Below are positions 24,210 through 55,147 of a DNA stretch of 64,000 bases, one piece after another. Positions within the stretch are counted from its first letter, which is position 1. Every line of letters begins with the position of its first letter. A program made the position numbers and the translations under genes. Below the pieces are notes generated by a model. That model did no database searches and had not been told where the DNA came from. It saw only the letters and a program-made list of their open reading frames with translations. The DNA is from Tupaia tana (lineage: Eukaryota > Chordata > Mammalia > Scandentia > Tupaiidae), in the NCBI GenBank assembly GCA_026018925.1, contig JAKSZU010000008.1, positions 7,368,415-7,432,414 of the forward strand. Reading direction: 5' to 3'.

Positions 24210-24425
24210 CTCAGGAGCTCCATTTTAACAGTTCAACTAGTGGTGATCAGTCTCAGGCTTTGAGAAGCAGAAACACAAATGACAGTATAATGATTGAGTA
24301 AAAAAACTACTTGTAACAGAGCAGGAAATACACTTTAAAAAAAAAAAAAGGTGAGTTTGGAGTGTCTTTTTACTTATTTCAGTGTTCATAATAAAAAAAA
24401 TTTGCTTTTAAAAATAATTGATCTT
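24210..24425. other. Short unassigned spacer
   Basis: Includes an A run at about 24335-24348. It ends in the target sequence of the next SINE. Confidence 0.4.
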
Positions 24426-24699
24426 GGGAACCAGCAGTTAGCGTAATGGCTATGTCGCTGGTCTCCCACGTAGTCGACGGCGGTTCGTGTCTCGGACCCG
24501 GTGGCTTACAACTCACGCCAGGCGCATGTGCGTGCGTGCCCAAGATCCCGAGAGGAGAATGGAGGAGAAGGGATTGCGGCGTGACCATCCCCCCTGGGGG
24601 GTGATTTCTCGCTTTCTGTCTCTATGTCTCTCTCTCTCTGTCTGGTGAGCACACTTGCCCTATAGCGAAAAACCTCTCCAAAAAAAAAAATAAATAAAT
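24426..24699 (+). mobile_element. tRNA-derived SINE, first of a head-to-tail pair
   Basis: Young CpG-rich copy flanked by aataattgatctt (24413-24425) and aatcattgatctt (24700-24712). A second SINE starts three bases after the right duplication. Confidence 0.95.
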
Positions 24700-24715
24700 A
24701 AATCATTGATCTTTT

Positions 24716-24977
24716 TGGGGACCAGTAGTTGGTGTAATGGCTATGTCACTGGACTCCCATGTAGTCGACTGCGGTTCGAGTCCTGGACCCAGTGGCTTAA
24801 ACTCACGCCGTGTGTGTATGCATGAGTGCCCAAGACCCCAAGAGGAGAATGGAAGAGAAGAGATTGTGGCATGGCCATCCCCCCTGGGGGGTGATTTCTC
24901 TCTTTCTGTCTTTCTGTCTCTCTCTGTCTTTCTGGCAACTGCATGCGCCCTATAGCAAAAACCTCTCCAATAAAATA
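24716..24977 (+). mobile_element. tRNA-derived SINE, second of a head-to-tail pair
   Basis: Full-length copy ending CTCTCCAATAAAATAATA. The target sequence attgatctttttg recurs as attgatatttttg at 24980, so three copies of the target bracket two SINEs. Confidence 0.93.
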
Positions 24978-36538: not shown

Positions 36539-36833
36539 TGTCGGCGTCACTTTTGCAGAGACGACACGACACCCGGTTCTTCCTCACGCAGTCTTTATTT
36601 ACAGGTTTCCTCTTTCTTTTTTTCTCCCTCTTCCCTACTTCCCTTTTCCCCCAGTATATATAGGATCCTCCCGGTGGCCCCACCCGCAAGTTCCTTCACC
36701 TGTACGTGGCAAGTCCTGATTGGCTGTTTCTAAAACATGTCCATAGAAGGAGTTGTTTGTAGTACTGGAGACACGCCTCCCTATGCAGCCAGCAGCGCCA
36801 TCTTGGCTCGGCGGCCAACGGCAGCGGCCAACA
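36539..36833 (-). repeat. 3' LTR of the class II provirus
   Basis: 295 bp with TG...CA ends (minus strand TGTTGGCC ... GCCGACA). The minus strand has a TATA-like TATATAC box (about 36655-36661) and AATAAAGACTGC, a poly(A) signal (about 36590-36601). Confidence 0.95.
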
Positions 36834-36846
36834 GTTCCCCCTTTTG
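36834..36846 (-). promoter_or_regulatory. Polypurine tract of the class II provirus
   Basis: The minus strand reads CAAAAGGGGGAAC directly against the 3' LTR, a textbook plus-strand primer. Confidence 0.92.
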
Positions 36847-37273
36847 TTTTTGTCAGGAGAAGGTAGAGGTCACGGCCCCAGATGTGGTGGACTTGCTTAC
36901 TGACCTGTGGAAGGGCCCAGGGGCATCCCCCAGGTCACCCTGTCCAATGCCTTTTTATGGGGATGGGTGTGTTGTCGGCATCAACCCATATGCACCCGGA
37001 CTTGCCTTCCTCCAGGTCCCATCAAGGGCCCCCCGGAGTGCAGTGCTTTGCCTCGCACCCTGAACTGATAGGGGTTTACTGCATCTGGGCCAGCCAAGCC
37101 GCGGGGGAGTATCCTTCTTCGATAGCGGCAAATGCTTGTACGAGGAAGGCGCGGTCACGATTGCGTTGGGCCCTCAATCTGTAAGATACTGGGAAAGTCC
37201 ATCGTTGTTCAGACTGAGCCCCCTGGGGGAGCGTCAGTGTCCCCAGGAGGAGAAGGCATCCCCAGGCCATCAT
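36847..37273 (-). pseudogene. env start, signal peptide and truncated remainder (class II)
   Basis: The minus strand from 37273 encodes MMAWGCLLLLGTLTLPQGAQ, a good signal peptide, in a frame overlapping the integrase end as is usual for pol and env. The frame stays open to a stop at 37076. Only about 230 bases lie between there and the polypurine tract, so nearly all of the surface and transmembrane subunits are absent. I do not see a transmembrane anchor. Confidence 0.7.
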
Positions 37274-37751
37274 CAGGGCTCGGTGTATCAGCAGGCAGGT
37301 TCTCCTGGGATGGAAGGCGTCGTACCAACCTCTCTGGGACCCACACCGGGTCTGGTTTGTCCTGTGGGAAAACACAAACAGATCCTCTCGACCAAACCAA
37401 CACAGGGTCTGGTCCCCTCCAGCGCCCCGTGAGGACGTCCTTCCATTTTACTTTTCCCTGCTTGCTCGGCCCCGGTGCATGGTGCCTGTCGGCAGCCGAG
37501 TGCCCTTGGGAATCGAGCTGAAAAAAATTGAGTGTTAAGAGTGCTATTGCGATGCGGTCTTTCGGGGAGTGACCTTTGCTGACTCCCCCTTTTTGTTTTT
37601 GTAGGAGCTCCTTGAGGGTGCGATGAGCCCTCTCTACTACACCTTGACCTTGAGGGTTATATGGTAGGCCATGTGTGAGCGTGATTCCCATGTGGTTGCA
37701 GAATTGTGAAAATGACCGGGCTGTATAACTGGGGCCATTATCCGTTTTCAT
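37209..37751 (-). pseudogene. Integrase, C-terminal half (class II)
   Basis: The minus strand is open for 180 codons. It starts at the second catalytic acid (KTDNGPSYT) and continues through YNPQGQGVVERAH, which holds the catalytic glutamate. It ends in the DNA-binding domain (LTGRWRGPDPVLVWSRGSVC). The zinc-binding domain and the first catalytic aspartate are deleted. Upstream it joins directly to the protease end without any reverse transcriptase, so it has no route to normal expression. Confidence 0.92.
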
Positions 37752-38454
37752 GTGCTATAAGAGGTCCCGCCCCCAGAGGGATATGGGGAGCTTCAGGACG
37801 TACGGCTGTAAGACCCCTTTATGTCCCTCATCATCTTGCCAACTGAGCTCTCGGGCACTGATACTTGGGGATTGCTCATATCCAAGGCCCCTAAGGTCTT
37901 GGGTGGCCTCTCCTATCGGCCAGGCCGTCGGCCAATCTTAACTGTAGCATGGGCCGGGACGTTAGGTCCATGACTGCAAAGGCTCCTGGAGTTCCTGTGG
38001 ACCCCAACCCGCCTTTTCCCCTAATGTTGTCTTTGGCCGGGAATCGGGCATGTTTGCTAGGCAATATTAAAATCTGGGCAATTTTGTCTCCCGGAGATAT
38101 GGCTGTGATCCCTCTTGGTGAGGAGACCAGGATCTTAACTTTTCCCGTAAAATCGGAGTCAATCACTCTGGGGTGTACCACCAGACCTCTAAGGGTTGCC
38201 GATGATCGACCAAGCAATAGCCCCATGGTGTTATCGGGCAAAGGGCCACAGAAATCAGAGTCAATCGGCTGTACCCCCATTTGAGGGGTTAATACCAATG
38301 TGGCGGTGGAACAGATGTCCAGTCCGGCTGAGCCGGGAGTGGCTCTCCTGACCTCTGAGGTGGGAGGAGACTCGGCCACTGCATGGTGGTGCTCTCGGCC
38401 ATTGCCCCATACATTTGCGGGCCCTGGGAGCGGGGGCCCCGCTGCCCGTTTTTT
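37752..38454 (-). pseudogene. dUTPase and truncated protease (class II)
   Basis: The minus-strand frame is open from the gag-pro frameshift site to a stop at 37891. All five dUTPase motifs are readable: PGSAGLDI, LLLGRSSAT, VVHPRVIDSDFTGKV, ISPGDKIAQI and RGKGGLGSTG. The enzyme family hydrolyses dUTP to keep uracil out of cDNA. The protease that follows begins (RPMLQLRLADG) but the DTGA active site is gone. Its C-terminal end, with LWGRDLL, reappears in another frame at 37755-37860. The deletion point is therefore near 37890-37920. Confidence 0.9.
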
Positions 38455-39584
38455 GACTGGGCTCCTCTAGGGCGGCCTTGGAGAGGTGGAAGAGGTCGAC
38501 CGTCAATATCCTTGACGGATCGGCACTCATTGGGCGGGTGGTTGCCCTTGCGGCATCGCGTACACAAGGTAGGTTGATTCGCATATGCCTGGCCCCGACG
38601 GAATAGACAATCCCGTTTCATATGCCCTGGCCATCCGCAGTGAAAGCAAGCCCCTGCGATATTGTTATGAGCTTTGCGTGACAGCTGCACTACTGCTGCC
38701 GCGAGACCAGTATTGCTCAGAGGCCCTCCCAAGTCCCTACAGAGTCTCATCTACACCTCTAGGCCCTTGTTTTTATAGGGGAGGATTGCATTGTGACATT
38801 CTTTTGTACACTGTTCAAATATAAGCTGTTTGACCAAAGGCGTGGCTGCATCCGCATCACCAAACATCCTGCCCGCCGTGTCCATTATTCTGGCCACGAA
38901 ATCAGAGAAGGGTTCTGTGGGGCCCTGAGTGATTTTTGTAAGGTTGGCCTGTGGTTCCCCTTTGTTGGGAAGCATTTTCCAGGCCTTGATTGCTATAGTA
39001 TTGATGTGATCGTAAACTGCCTGAGGGTAGTCTGTTTGTTGATTGGCGAACCTGCCCTGTCCCATATACATATCCACATCCCACGCCGCCTGTCCAGCGG
39101 CCCTGTTCCAGGTGGCTTGGGCTTGCGCCCCCTCAAGGTAAATAACCTTCCAGTCAAGATACTGACCCGGGGACAGGCAAGTCCTCGCGAGCGTTCCCCA
39201 ATCACTGGGTGTCATACAGTACCGCTGTAGAGTCTCAACGAGACCGACAGTAAAAGCTGCACCATTCCTGTATGTCTTTACGGCCTCTGCTAAAGCCTTG
39301 ATGGTCTGATAATCTAGGGGCTCATGATATCTATTCCCAGCATTATCTGCAAAAACGGGAAATGCCCGAACAGGCCCAAGCTGTCTGGCCTCCCGCCAAG
39401 TCCCGGGGCAGAAAGAAGCTCCGCCCTCCGGGTTCTCCTTTTGTGGGGCAGAGGGATTATGAGGGGGAGGAGCCGTGGGAAGAGGCCAGTCTTCCTCTTC
39501 CTCCTCGGCAACCTCCCAACCTTTAACTTCCTGAATTAATTGTCTTACTTCGTGATCGTCATCTTCCCCGCAGGCTTCCGCCAT
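38289..39584 (-). pseudogene. gag polyprotein with one in-frame stop (class II)
   Basis: The minus-strand frame starts at an ATG in a strong context (AAGATGG) and runs 277 codons to a TAG at 38751-38753. It continues in the same frame for 153 codons. The first part has an acidic segment, a PTAPPP late-domain motif at about residues 36-41, then capsid with the major homology region (QGPTEPFSDFVARI). The second part has two intact CX2CX4HX4C zinc knuckles (CFHCGWPGHMKRDC and CTRCRKGNHPPNEC). Only about 80 residues precede the capsid and there is no second-position glycine, so a myristoylated matrix domain appears to be missing. Apart from the TAG the frame is open. Confidence 0.9.
38448..38454 (-). 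promoter_or_regulatory. gag-pro -1 ribosomal frameshift site
   Basis: The minus strand reads A AAA AAC in the gag frame (codons TCA AAA AAC), the classic X XXY YYZ slippery heptamer. GC-rich sequence directly downstream (GCAGCGGGGCCCCCGCTCCC) could form a strong stem. The dUTPase-protease frame lies at -1 relative to gag and is open from this point. Confidence 0.85.
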
Positions 39585-39670
39585 CTTGGCAGCCCCGTTC
39601 TCGAGATGGCCCAGCCCCCATCATCGTTGTTCTCTTTTATTCCTTACTTTCAGCCAATGGCTTCAGTCTG

Positions 39671-39790
39671 CCTCTTATCCAAGGTCTTTTATCCGCCTCT
39701 CTACCGAGGTCTTCTATCCGCCTCTTTGCCGAGGTCTTCTATCCGCCTCTTTGCCGAGGTCTTTTATCCGCCTCTTTACCGAGGTCTTCC
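39671..39790. repeat. 25 bp tandem repeat in the class II leader
   Basis: Four full units at 39686-39710, 39711-39735, 39736-39760 and 39761-39785 (core atccgcctctttgccgaggt), with partial units on both sides. It lies between the primer binding site and gag, in the region that would carry packaging signals. Confidence 0.95.
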
Positions 39791-39873
39791 TTCCGGGACC
39801 CCCGCCTGGTACTTACCAGCTAGCTGCCCTGTAGACTCGGAGGTTCTGAACCTTCTGTGCTCTATGGTGTGCT

Positions 39874-39891
39874 TCCCCGTACGGGCCACCA
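39874..39891 (-). promoter_or_regulatory. Primer binding site, tRNA-Ile
   Basis: Two bases inside the 5' LTR. The plus strand reads TCCCCGTACGGGCCACCA, which equals the last 15 bases of mammalian tRNA-Ile(AAT) plus CCA, an 18/18 match by my recollection of that tRNA. Confidence 0.88.
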
Positions 39892-39893
39892 CT

Positions 39894-40180
39894 TGTCGGC
39901 GTCACTTCTGCAGAGACGACACGACACCCGGTTCTTCCTCATGCAGTCTTTATTCACAGGTTTCCTTTTTCTTCTTCTTCTTCTACTTCCCTTTTCCCCC
40001 GTATATATATGATCCTCCTGGTGGCCCCACCCGCAAGTTCCTTCGCCTGTACGTGGCAAGTCCTGATTGGCTATCTCTAAAACATGTCCATAGACGGAGT
40101 TGTTTGTAGTACTGGAGACACGCCTCCCTATGCAGCCAGCGGCGCCATCTTGGCTCGGCAGCCAACGGCGGCGGCCAACA
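39894..40180 (-). repeat. 5' LTR of the class II provirus
   Basis: 287 bp with TG...CA ends, aligned end to end with 36539-36833. It carries the same TATA-like and AATAAAGACTGC elements and ends at the cagaag target duplication. Confidence 0.95.
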
Positions 40181-40958: not shown

Positions 40959-40975
40959 AAAAGAGGAAGAGCCTC

Positions 40976-41329
40976 TGGCGCCAGCACGCACGGCGGTGGC
41001 GGCGGCGGCGGCGGCGGCGAGGGGGCGGCCAAGCCCGCCCCCCCGTCCCCTGCACCAGCGCGCGCGGCAGCGGCAGCAGCGGCAGCAAGGGGGCGGCTGA
41101 GCCTGCCCCCTGCCCCGGGGGGCGGACTCTCCTCTGCTCTCCGGGTGCGGCGGCCTGGACCGCCCGGCTCCCGCTGCCTCTCCGGTGCGGGATCTGTCCC
41201 GCGCTCAGCGCCGACGTGGACCAGTGGCACCAAAAGGCCGAGGTCGCCGTCCTTTCTGTCTCTGGCCGGGCGGGCGAGTGGGAGATGGCGATGGGTCCCG
41301 GGCACATACGCGCACTCGGGGCTGGTGTG
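40976..41329 (+). repeat. GC-rich leader of the composite retroposon
   Basis: Very CpG-rich, with a (GGC)n run at about 40992-41020 and (GCAGCG)-type repeats near 41065-41085. It could be derived from a promoter or first exon of a gene, though I do not recognise the source. It is the likely promoter-bearing end. Confidence 0.7.
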
Positions 41330-42097
41330 TGGCCGTTGAGCCTGCGCATGGCCACCGGGCCGGCACGAGGCCGCCGGACCTGCGAGTGGCCGCTGGGCGC
41401 ACGCGTGGCCCCCGGACTTGCGAGTGGCCGCCGGGTCTGAGTGTGGCTGCCGGGCCTGCACCTACACGTGGCCACCGGGCCTGCTCCCGGCCACCGGGCC
41501 TGCTCCTGTGAGTGGCCGCTGGGCCTATGCGTGGCCACCGGGACTGCGCCTACGCACGGCTGCCAGGCCGGAGCGTGGTTGCCGGGCTGTGTGGCCGCCG
41601 GGCCCACATGTGGCTCCCGGGCCTGCGAGTGGCTGCCGGGCCCGCGTGTGGCCACCGGGCCCGCGTGTGGCCGCCGGGCCTGCGCATGACCCCCGGGTCG
41701 ACAAATGGCCGCCAGACCTGAGCATGGCCGCTAGTCCTGTGCGTGGCTGCCGGGCCTGCGCCTGTGTGTGGCCGCTAGGCCTGCGCCTGCGAGTGGCCAC
41801 CGGGCCAGCGTGTGGCCGTTGGGCCTGCGTGCAGCCGCCGGGCCGGCGCGTGGCCACCAGGCCTGCGTGTGGCTGCCGGGCCTGCACCCGTGCACAGCCA
41901 CCGGGCCTGCGGGTGACCACCGAGCCTGCGCGTGGCCGCCGGGCATGGGCCCATGCGTGGCCGCCAGGCCTACACGTGGCTGCCGGGCCTGCACCTGGGC
42001 GTGGCCGCCAGGCCTGTGCATGGCTACCGGGCAGACACCTGGGCGTGACCAACGAGTCAGCATGTGATCGCTCGGCCAGCACGTGGCCACCGGCCGC
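41330..42097 (+). repeat. VNTR of 19 bp units (composite retroposon)
   Basis: About 37 tandem units of the form tggccgccgggcctgcgcg. Some are 25 bp because of a 6 bp insert (such as cctaca). Units are diverged from one another (often 2-5 changes). GC-rich and CpG-rich. Long open frames on both strands are a by-product of the repeat. Confidence 0.92.
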
Positions 42098-42567
42098 GAG
42101 CGGCAAACTGAAGCCAAAAACAAGAATTAAAATCTTGCAAATATAAGCAACAGAAAGAATCTTTAGATGTATTAAACCAATTGAGAAATATATTGTATAG
42201 GAGGACTTTCGCTGCCCATGGGCAATGAGAAGATGATGGTTACCAGCCCTGCATTACCTCAGGGATAAACAAGAACTATTCTACCATTCTTGGGGAAGCC
42301 AGACACTCGAGGATGACTCACACTGCAGATCCCCACATCACCACTCTCAGTAATCACAGGATAGTGGCTGTGCCACATCAACTGATAACCATCTCTGCCT
42401 ACCAGAACTGCGCTCCTAGAACCGTATTCCATAGAAACTCACCTACAATTGCGGAACTGCACGAGACCCACCCTTGACCCAATCCTGAACAGAATCTATG
42501 TTTCCTATTGTGGAAAACTTTATGAGCTCATAATTGAGAAAGGAAAAAAAAAAAAAAAAAAAAAAAA
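42098..42567 (+). other. Module A with internal poly(A) (composite retroposon)
   Basis: About 440 bp of ordinary sequence beginning caaactgaagccaaaaac and ending in A(24) at 42544-42567. No ORF and no homology I recognise. The A tract suggests this was once a retroposon 3' end. Confidence 0.75.
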
Positions 42568-42823
42568 GGGTGAAAGATCTGGAGGGTATGGTCGCAGGGA
42601 TGGCAACTGCGGATGCTGGAGACAGCATGGGAGAGGTAATGGGAATGAATGATGGAGGGCGGTCTAGGGAACGATCATCACATTTGATGGACACAGGGAT
42701 GAAGGGCGGGCTGTTGATGATGATGTATGTAATGGTATCACTGTCTTGACCAATGTGATCTGTACTCATGCTGGAAAAACCACACTGTACACTGTAAAGA
42801 TGTGCAATGAAAAAAAAAAAAAA
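42568..42823 (+). other. Module B with internal poly(A) (composite retroposon)
   Basis: About 242 bp followed by A(14) at 42810-42823. Its start (aaagatctggagggt ... gcggatgctgg) resembles the start of module C, with an offset of about 277 bp. Confidence 0.7.
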
Positions 42824-43101
42824 TAATATCAGCACTCCGGCAGAGGGAGAAAGATCTGATGATTTGATAGCGGAAAGGACAAATGTGGATGCCAGAGGCT
42901 GTAAGGGTGGGGAGTGGGGGGTCGGGAGTGGGTGGTGGAGAGTGGGCGTGGGGGGCAAAGGGAGGAGTCATTTGTCACCAGAAAATGTAGGGTTCTCTGT
43001 TGAAAACTAGATACATGTATCTATATTGTACACATCATAATGAGAACTTTATGTAAAATGAATGTGATTGATCTGAGAAAGAAAAATAAAGGGAAAAAAA
43101 A
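42824..43101 (+). other. Module C and 3' end (composite retroposon)
   Basis: Contains a G-rich stretch at about 42905-42960 able to form a G-quadruplex (several GGG runs), AATAAA at 43085-43090 and the terminal A tail from 43094. The G-rich tract recalls L1 3' UTRs, but I cannot establish descent. Confidence 0.7.
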
Positions 43102-43118
43102 AAAAGAGGAAGAGCCTC

Positions 43119-44146: not shown

Positions 44147-45010
44147 GGGGGTGGGGGTGAGAGGACGAAGAAAGGAAGAAAAACAGTTGGCTGAAATAGA
44201 AACTATGCAAGGAAAACTTCCAGCAGTGGCCTGGGAACAATTCATAAAGAAAGAAAAACGGTGAAACTAGCTCTGAATTTCTCAGTGAAAATCCTGGAAG
44301 TAAGATGATAAAAAATAACTTCCAAACTGGAGTCCACATGCGAACTATCAGCTAAGCATAAGGATTCAGTAGAGACATTTTTAACACTGCAAGACCTCAA
44401 GAAATGTATTACCTTCGGAACTTTTCTTAAAAAGCTATAGGAGTATGTGCTCCATCAGGGTGGAAGCAGAAACAAGTGAACGAAAGACAAAGGATGGTGG
44501 AAACAGGGCTCCACCCAGGAGGACCGCTGAGAAGGCACTTCTGAGAGCTGGCTACTCAGTCTGCCCAGTGTGAGGAAGGCTGGCTTCCCAGATGCACACC
44601 TGGTCTCCCTAACAGGCCTCACTGCTCAGGCCCCTGCAGACATGCCGTCCTGCTGGGCTCTGATAGCACCTGACAGGTGGAGGCCACCCAGAGCTGGATC
44701 AGCTGCAAAACAGCCCCTCACAACTGCCCACGCTCTGCCCCACCCACGTTCAGGAGGTACTCACCCCAGCTGTGCTCCGTATTCCCGATCACGCCAGGCC
44801 CTGGGTGGGGGCTTTGGGGCAGGGGCCCTTTCGCGCCGAGGTCCTGCTGCATCCCTTGGGCTCTCTACAAGCCACTGTCCTCCAGGCAGCTGAGCTCATT
44901 CCTGGCATTGTTAGGTTTGTGTTTACTCCTCACTATTTAATAAAACAAAGGTTGTCCTTGCAACACATAAACAGGTGTTAAAACTGATTTTTTAAAAATA
45001 AGGAAGTATA
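44147..45010. other. Intergenic DNA, unassigned
   Basis: The part at 44530-44900 is GC-richer with overlapping short frames, but no recognisable protein or splice structure. Otherwise nothing is recognised. Confidence 0.4.
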
Positions 45011-45276
45011 GGGACCAGCACTTAGCATAATGGTTATGTTGCTGGACTCCCACGTAGTCGACCACGGTTTGAGTCCCAGATCCAGTGGCTTAAACTCACT
45101 CTGGGCATGTGTGCGTGCGTGCCCAAGATCCCGAGAGGAGAATGGAGGAGAAGGGGTTGCGGCATGGCCATCCCCCCGGGGGGTGATTTCTCGCTTTCTG
45201 TCTCTATGTCTCTCTCTGTCGTTCTGGTGAGCGCATACGCCCTATAGCGAAAAACCTCTCCAAAAATAATAATAAT
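45011..45276 (+). mobile_element. tRNA-derived SINE, first of a head-to-tail pair
   Basis: Full-length copy with an (AAT)n tail. The target aataaggaagtata is perfect on both sides (ending at 45010 and at 45290). Confidence 0.96.
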
Positions 45277-45290
45277 AATAAGGAAGTATA

Positions 45291-45534
45291 GGGCCAGCAC
45301 GTGGTGTGGTGGTGAGAGCCCTGGACTAACCACATGGCTGACCTCTGCTGGAGCTAGACCCTACGGCTTGAAAAGGCTGGGTGCCTATGCATGCCCAAAA
45401 CCCCAAGAGGAGAAGGGAGAAGGGACTGCGGAGTGGCCTTCCCCCTGGGGGGTAATTTCTCATTTTCCCTCTCTCTGTCTCTGGCAAGTGCACAAGCCCT
45501 ATGACAAAAATGTAAAAATTAAAATAAAACAAAA
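45291..45534 (+). mobile_element. tRNA-derived SINE, second of a head-to-tail pair
   Basis: A different, older-type copy (GGGCCAGCACGTGGTGTGG) starts at the first base after the duplication of the previous SINE. Its own right flank reads aaaaggaaatattt, a diverged form of the same target. Confidence 0.9.
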
Positions 45535-51167: not shown

Positions 51168-51225
51168 AAAAAAAACTCAGCTCTTTGTTTTGTTGATATT
51201 TTATATTTTATGTCTCTAGTTCATT

Positions 51226-51372
51226 TGTTACTACTCTGATATTTTCCATTTATGTCTGTTTTATTTACTACTGCTCTGATATTTTCTATTTTATATCTCT
51301 GTTCAATTTATTGCTACTCTGATATTTTCTATTTTATCACTATTTCACTGATTAGTACTCTGATATTTCTTT
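51226..51372. repeat. Imperfect tandem repeat within L1
   Basis: The core tactctgatattttctatttta occurs four times at spacings of about 40-50 bp (51231, 51273, 51314, 51356). Confidence 0.75.
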
Positions 51373-53835: not shown

Positions 53836-54442
53836 AGCACTGTTCAGCACTCTCAAGGCTCCTTCTCTTTCATTTATTTTACATGCACTCACTGTATGTC
53901 ATTACCGCATAGCAGATGAATTTTCCCATCCAGAGGACACTGCATTTTGGCTCAGTTTGAGATATTACCATACATATTATCTCCACCAGATCATTTTCCA
54001 CTTTGTGTTTGCTACATGTTTCTAATTATTTCTTTTTTCCCCTTGATTTCTCCCTCTCCCCAATTAGTGCTGCCACTGTGGAAAACAATATGGAGATTCC
54101 CCAAGGCTATTTTTAAATTCATTTATTAATTTTATCTCTGTTTTCAAATTTATTTGTATGAAGTTCTCTCTTATCCTCCTAAAATCTTTATGATATCCAC
54201 GTGGTCTCTCCTGGTTTACTATTTACTCCTAATCATGGTTACTGTGCCTTCTCGCTTTTTCTTGCTAAGTCTCGATTGAGATAATGCCAGGTCAAGAAAT
54301 CTTTGTCAAGAGCCAACCTTTGGAATTATGGGATCTCCGTATTTTACAGCTGTTTTCTGATTTCTTCTTTTCCCTTTATTATTTCCTCCCACCTACTTTC
54401 TTTGAGGTTAATTTTGTTTTATCTCTATAACTTCTCTTTATT
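53836..54442 (-). mobile_element. Probable L1 antisense, decayed
   Basis: AT-rich with pieces resembling antisense L1 3' sequence. Assignment rests on composition and on neighbouring L1 in the same orientation. Confidence 0.4.
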
Positions 54443-54684
54443 TCGAGAAGTTTTTGCTATAGGACATGTGCACTTGCCAGAAAGACTGAGAGAGACAGAA
54501 AGTAAGAAATCACTCCACAGAGGGGATGACCACGCCACAATCCCTTCTCCTTCGTTCTCCTCTCGGAATCTGGGGCACACACACATGCGCCCAGCGTTAA
54601 TTTCAGCCACCAGGTCCGGTACTTGAATCGTGGTCGTCTACATGGTCGTCCAGAGACATAGCCATTACACCAACTGCTGGTCCC
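54443..54684 (-). mobile_element. tRNA-derived SINE, one of an adjacent pair
   Basis: Minus-strand copy. The word ctctataactt occurs before it (54422), between it and the next SINE (54683), and after the next (54961, as ctctataattt). Confidence 0.92.
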
Positions 54685-54702
54685 TCTATAACTTTTTTCT
54701 TT

Positions 54703-54957
54703 TTTTTGAGAGGTTTTCACTATAGGGTGCGTGCACTCACCAGACAGACAGAGAGAGACAGAGAGACAGAAAGCGAGAAATCACCCCCTAGAGGGGATGG
54801 TCATGCCGCAATTGCTTCTCCTCCATTCTCCTCTCAGGATCTTGGGCACGCACGCACATGCACCTGGCGTGAGTTTTAAGCCACCGGATCTGGGAAGTGA
54901 ACCGCGGTAGACTACGTGGGAGTCCAGCGACATAGCCATTACACTAACTGCTGGTTC
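54703..54957 (-). mobile_element. tRNA-derived SINE, one of an adjacent pair
   Basis: Minus-strand full-length copy directly next to the previous one, sharing its target word. Confidence 0.94.
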
Positions 54958-55147
54958 CCCCTCTATAATTTCTTGAGATGGATGCTTACATGAATCATTT
55001 TCAACATTTCTTAATTTTTAATATGTTTATTTTGAGTCTATACATTTTCCTTTAAGCACTGATCTTACTGCATCCTACTTATTAATATGTAGAATTTTTA
55101 TCACCACTCCATTCAAAATAATCCTGATTTCCGCTATGATTTCTGGT

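Follow-up and report, generated by a model that had tools for sequence, protein, structure and literature searches.

A young SVA-like composite retroposon family, probably mobilised by L1 and built from parts apparently unrelated to hominoid SVA

What is the ~2.1-kb unit, with its CpG-rich leader, tandem array and composite A-tailed 3' part, that lies in the 64-kb window (the whole stretch of DNA analysed here), and does it stand alone in its genome? The initial annotation had seen in it the architecture of the SVA and LAVA elements, assembled from seemingly unrelated parts, a description that our analysis upholds. With a rough probability of 0.93, we consider the unit to be one nearly complete member of a composite retroposon family that is young, non-coding and non-autonomous, that would be mobilised by L1 and that is SVA-like without being SVA. 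We also think it quite probable that this family represents a convergent second version of the SVA design outside the hominoids, in which a CpG leader and a GC-rich VNTR are combined with A-tailed modules added stepwise, and which has been active within the past few million years, giving parallel subfamilies in which the leader is retained and 3' modules are exchanged or lost.

The unit spans 40976-43101 and lies between exact 17-bp direct repeats, AAAAGAGGAAGAGCCTC, at 40959-40975 and 43102-43118, as initially described; the plus strand of the window holds no further exact copy of them. Its parts follow each other in the order GC-rich leader, 19-bp VNTR, modules A, B and C, and A tail:

40959..40975, + strand: 5' target-site duplication of 17 bp with cut site CC/AAAA, from the direct repeat and the duplication scan
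40976..41325, + strand: leader, GC- and CpG-rich, with a (GGC)n stretch, the presumed promoter and 5' end, from base composition
41326..42095, + strand: VNTR of 19-bp units with consensus GTGGCCGCCGGGCCTGCGC, from the tandem-repeat scan
42096..42543, + strand: module A, without a coding match, from the genome searches
42544..42567, + strand: internal A24 ending module A
42568..42809, + strand: module B, its initial ~70 bp similar to the start of C
42810..42823, + strand: internal A14 ending module B
42824..43093, + strand: short linker and module C, with a G-rich purine tract at ~42905-42970 and AATAAA at 43085-43090
43094..43101, + strand: terminal A tail (12 A, 43094-43105, counting the As common to the duplication)
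43102..43118, + strand: 3' target-site duplication

The leader has a GC content of 0.78 and a CpG observed/expected ratio of 0.89, in keeping with its first description as CpG-rich, and the GC content of the VNTR is 0.76 compared with 0.43-0.48 in modules A, B and C. Each 3' module ends in a run of A residues, of 24, 14 and 12 nucleotides, respectively (42544-42567, 42810-42823 and 43094-43105), and the reported 3' end with AATAAA and an A tail is confirmed. For the duplication around the window copy the score is 15.7, with the 99% null at 12.0 (840 placements), and the same null reached a maximum of 28.9, so that single scores barely past the threshold are no proof on their own. A coding origin was rejected, as no Pfam family matched any of seven ORFs of the element (E up to 1) and the longest ORF of module A found no match in the PDB.

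The array had been put at about 37 copies of a 19-bp repeat, which was a fair estimate: the tandem-repeat scan finds 31.7 copies with 63% matches at 41329-41944, and the entire array (~41326-42095) measures 770 bp, or about 40 units. In family copies the VNTR again sits between leader and A, and its length in 48 measurable copies varies from 331 to 994 bp, with 35 distinct values. The longest TRF row has a period of 19 in 40 of these 48 arrays, 44 in seven and 38 in one, and their commonest 19-bp consensus is the one given for the window copy.

Several other repeats accompany the unit. Two direct repeats, 295 bp (36539-36833) and 287 bp (39894-40180) long and 92% alike, surround minus-strand gag/pol-like frames, and we take 36539-40180 to be a decayed endogenous retrovirus; a 25-bp tandem repeat at 39670-39789 lies just inside one of these direct repeats. 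Longer matches, of ~520-550 bp, at 24424-24975, 44990-45510 and 54437-54959 have the look of head-to-tail dimers of a tRNA-like SINE that fills the window, in one copy of which ARAGORN found no tRNA. This SINE and its dimers are reminiscent of colugo SINEs, a possible hint at such a host. At 51194-51368, a 43-bp tandem repeat is present in 4.2 copies, with an 83-bp higher period.

The host assembly (2.95 Gb in 1198 contigs) was searched with modules C, B and A separately. Each search returned at least 40 matches, and the 30 loci fetched per search (90 in all) merged into 62 distinct loci, which are those most similar to the window copy and are thus biased towards young copies in both age and completeness. 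Of these, 48 have the full order leader-A-B-C, six have A-B-C, their 5' end being truncated, inverted or beyond the fetched piece, and four have leader-A-B without a full C; the other arrangements, each found once, are A inverted relative to B-C, a B piece with C, an inverted B piece before C, and B alone.

Genome-wide counts with 30-mers, at up to 3 mismatches, gave 124 sites for the leader, 493 for A, 222 for B and 948 for C, and the control, each pattern read backwards, gave 0 sites throughout. With C so much more frequent than the leader, it may also form the end of another element, such as an L1. C lies 1.36-1.99 kb downstream on the same strand in 81 of the 100 listed leader sites, A in 69, and one or the other in 92, and a leader is found upstream of at least 55 of the 78 exact C sites (100 of the 124 leader sites being listed). 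B follows 75 of the 96 listed A sites, at 286-293 bp (18) or 455-475 bp (57). Among the eight listed leader sites with neither A nor C, one gains a G-type C, the variant described below, and in another A and C are on the opposite strand; six remain alone among the matches listed (C308:7402013, C308:7384071, C297:63615107, C111:8389450, C297:59319611 and C309:115679579, strands checked), and the leader may have originated at one of them. Copies seem to be unevenly spread over contigs. Exact C sites number 0 of 78 on C231, C242, C253, C264, C275 and C286, compared with 11.6 expected for these contigs picked post hoc; a true depletion there was rejected, given A sites on three of the six, and only a bias is left.

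The proposal that many loci would repeat this arrangement, and that every one of them would carry an A tail and a target duplication of its own, therefore stood as to order and copy number, and only in part as to the duplications, which together with A tails mark many copies and not every locus. Scores above the 99% null were obtained for 22 of 56 loci, or for 21, with duplications of 13-18 bp, once an artefact is set aside (C1197:121519437, where the match was over-extended into a SINE). A further, locus-by-locus check covers the 35 of the 62 loci that have their 5' end inside the fetched piece and carry oriented A and C, with 19 loci whose 5' end lies beyond the piece and eight without oriented A and C falling outside it. 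By script, 19 of the 35 have a duplication; about 11 of the remaining 16, C1197:121519437 included, have a matching 9-16 bp by eye (unscored), and five of the 35 have no convincing duplication even by eye. Duplications and flanks differ from copy to copy among those scored. The cut sites of the 22 scored loci, artefact included, are TT/AAAA in six and /AAAA in 14, with A first in all, which lends moderate support, as a duplication may begin within the A tail and the initial A is partly built into the scan.

Five copies have inverted 5' pieces. The sequence at C111:90037828 has a twin-priming pattern, with A4-426 inverted and followed, in direct order, by what remains of A and by B and C; the VNTR is inverted at the 5' end of C420:147702642, part of B at that of C397:26741006, and the leader or leader-A in C420:140667332 and C864:148061744, as judged by the strand of hits. 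One further copy is 5'-shortened inside B and has its own duplication. Four copies end at B or in the B-C linker, three of them with a scripted duplication, and these would fit alternative polyadenylation. In C1197:121519437, downstream of C, the first A tail is separated from the likely duplication by ~45 bp foreign to the element and by another run of A, possibly a small 3' transduction. The L1 mobilisation that had been presumed at the outset is supported by these duplications and A tails and by the 5'-truncated copies and inverted 5' pieces. The genome also offers many open L1 ORF1 frames of 340 aa, with all 150 scored matches (of 43,928 candidates) over the cut-off.

The copies are young. 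In 53 A-B-C copies, the mean K2P divergence from the consensus is 1.8%, and 1.46% at non-CpG positions (range 0.5-2.3%); with the mammalian rates of 2.2-4.5 x 10^-9 given in the accessible text of PMC4198772, the non-CpG divergence points to an age of about 3-7 million years, which applies to the youngest layer only. In nine of the 53, the last part of A is missing together with its A run and the beginning of B, all with the same junction (one adjacent substitution in one copy), and they form one nested clade with a support of 0.78 in a midpoint-rooted tree. As the junction, CCATAGA joined to TGCTGGAG, has no GT-AG and only a 2-bp GA microhomology, splicing was rejected as the origin of this short form, and deletion is likelier. 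The short A-B spacing is found genome-wide in 18 of the 75 A-B pairs among the matches listed.

Further layers can be recognised. The A sites are bimodal by mismatch, with 63 exact, 19 at one, 14 at two and 397 at three mismatches (four of these 397 being among the matches listed), and an older layer of the family therefore exists; at C111:24880280, a three-mismatch A is followed by a B site at 461 bp. A sister layer, which has G at one place in C, accounts for 54 exact sites (reversed control 0), of which 27 have a listed leader, six have A at up to 2 mismatches, and 23 have the leader and no such A. A more diverged A could still be present in these 23.

As to the source of the modules, B and C share ~70 bp at their starts, a similarity that none of 300 mononucleotide shuffles equalled. 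B occurs alone, with an A-rich tail and no clear target duplication, at C531:170600027 (locus L048, C531:170598527-170601763), in surroundings that look to us like an old MLT1-type LTR, and the sister C occurs at L092 as a 154-bp 5'-truncated end within other DNA. We infer from the shared starts and from the occurrence of B (L048) and of the end of C (L092) on their own that the 3' modules were recruited from A-tailed retroposed pieces. After masking of the element copies, a search of the fetched DNA for diverged relatives found none for A or C and one match for B (E 0.13). Another locus, L091, presumably holds an old L1M-type 3' end, and none of A, B and C matched it above shuffles (p 0.46, 0.30 and 0.83, respectively). 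What we take to be a resemblance to 7SL/Alu lies at ~690-735 of the same locus, and some 7SL-derived sequence may be present in the host genome.

A plausible life cycle can be put forward from these features. RNA polymerase II would start in the CpG-rich leader, and the transcript would pass through the 19-bp VNTR and the three joined 3' modules before being polyadenylated past the AATAAA of C. L1 proteins would reverse-transcribe this RNA in trans by target-primed reverse transcription, as the insertion marks suggest, and insertion would yield duplications of 9-18 bp, A tails, some 5' truncations and, through twin priming, inverted 5' pieces. The 3' part would have grown stepwise from pre-existing A-tailed retroposed pieces, some of which later subfamilies would have lost or changed.

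Other explanations of the unit have to be weighed against this one. The single element copy in the 64-kb window might suggest a one-off processed transcript or a local rearrangement, which a lone locus in the genome would have favoured; the 62 distinct loci and the genome-wide counts reject this reading, to which we attach practically no weight. Spread by segmental duplication rather than retroposition would agree with the uneven distribution over contigs, but it is very improbable given that scored copies differ in their duplications and flanks and that L1 insertion typically leaves 5' truncations and inverted 5' pieces. More serious, although still unlikely in our view, is an internally deleted L1 of the half-L1 kind, with leader and VNTR as L1 5' UTR, C as 3' UTR and the ORFs lost. 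HAL1 and other deleted L1 elements are non-autonomous, L1-dependent and A-tailed, as is the element here, and a G-rich purine tract, often present in L1 3' UTRs, precedes AATAAA in C; the excess of C over leader sites (948 versus 124) and the many open ORF1 frames of the host genome also fit. However, A or C lies downstream of nearly all listed leader sites (92 of 100, as above), no L1 ORF remnant was recognised and the seven ORFs gave no Pfam match. Moreover, the 124 leader sites are fewer than the 150 scored ORF1 hits, and the leader is therefore unlikely to be a present L1 5' UTR, for which it is too rare at up to 10% divergence. None of the 132 listed C sites has a listed ORF1 on its own strand within 12 kb, a weak argument with 150 of 43,928 ORF1 candidates scored; one listed C site is 1.5 kb from an ORF1 on the opposite strand.

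True membership among the hominoid SVA, LAVA, PVA and FVA elements, or their ancestor SVA2, would agree with the layout, in which a 5' part rich in GC, a VNTR in the centre, a composite 3' end and an A tail are common to both. An Alu-like region is common to SVA, LAVA, PVA and FVA, and the 3' part of SVA comes from a HERV-K LTR. Here the Rfam search gave no 7SL/Alu match, the CT hexamer has three scattered 2-mismatch matches inside the element and no array, and Alu cores, at up to 4 mismatches and without a positive control, numbered 0 both in the window (64 kb) and in the fetched loci, which total 299 kb, or 217 kb once overlaps are removed, in line with the earlier impression that the window does not look hominoid; another SINE core is present in 19 copies in the same window. 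Membership is accordingly rejected on the defining 5' parts, Alu-like region and CT hexamer, and we hold it to be highly improbable. In the accessible text of PMC4432496, VNTR composites are specific to hominoid primates and have repeat units of 30-50 bp, compared with 19 bp here, and SVA2, the ancestor of all of them, is found in macaque and gibbon, a point in favour of membership.

The L1-mobilised family that we favour thus resembles known VNTR composites in design and differs from them in parts. Like SVA, it is non-coding, with a GC-rich 5' part, a variable GC-rich central VNTR, an A tail, L1-type insertion marks, subfamilies and numerous near full-length copies (by another criterion, 38% of human reference SVAs and 20% of L1Hs are full length in the accessible text of PMC10681720); in contrast to SVA, no Alu-like or CT-hexamer part was found in it, its unit is 19 bp, its 3' modules A, B and C are each A-tailed, and Alu cores were absent from the host DNA examined. 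SVA2 is also VNTR-bearing and also occurs outside hominoids, but, compared by description, it belongs to the VNTR lineage of SVA, whose Alu-like and hexamer parts are absent here. LAVA (L1-Alu-VNTR-Alu, gibbons) shares the VNTR and a 3' end assembled from older retroposed pieces; compared by description, however, its 3' end consists of AluSz, L1ME and unique parts, none of which was identified here, and its Alu-like 5' part is lacking. The gibbon PVA and FVA elements are likewise VNTR composites with exchanged 3' ends, but their hominoid 5' Alu-like/VNTR core was not found in this element. No VNTR composite outside the SVA/LAVA lineage appeared among the papers listed from the literature within reach, which leaves out most subscription journals and all repeat databases.

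Which parts make SVA and LAVA good L1 substrates is still under discussion, according to the accessible text of PMC4432496. A second family that shares the layout, with parts that seem unrelated, offers a natural replicate. Features common to both, namely the CpG leader, the GC-rich tandem array and the composite 3' end, become candidate needs of an L1 passenger, and those not in common, the Alu-like part and the CT hexamer, would be dispensable in principle. For the host lineage itself, the family copies are young insertion markers.
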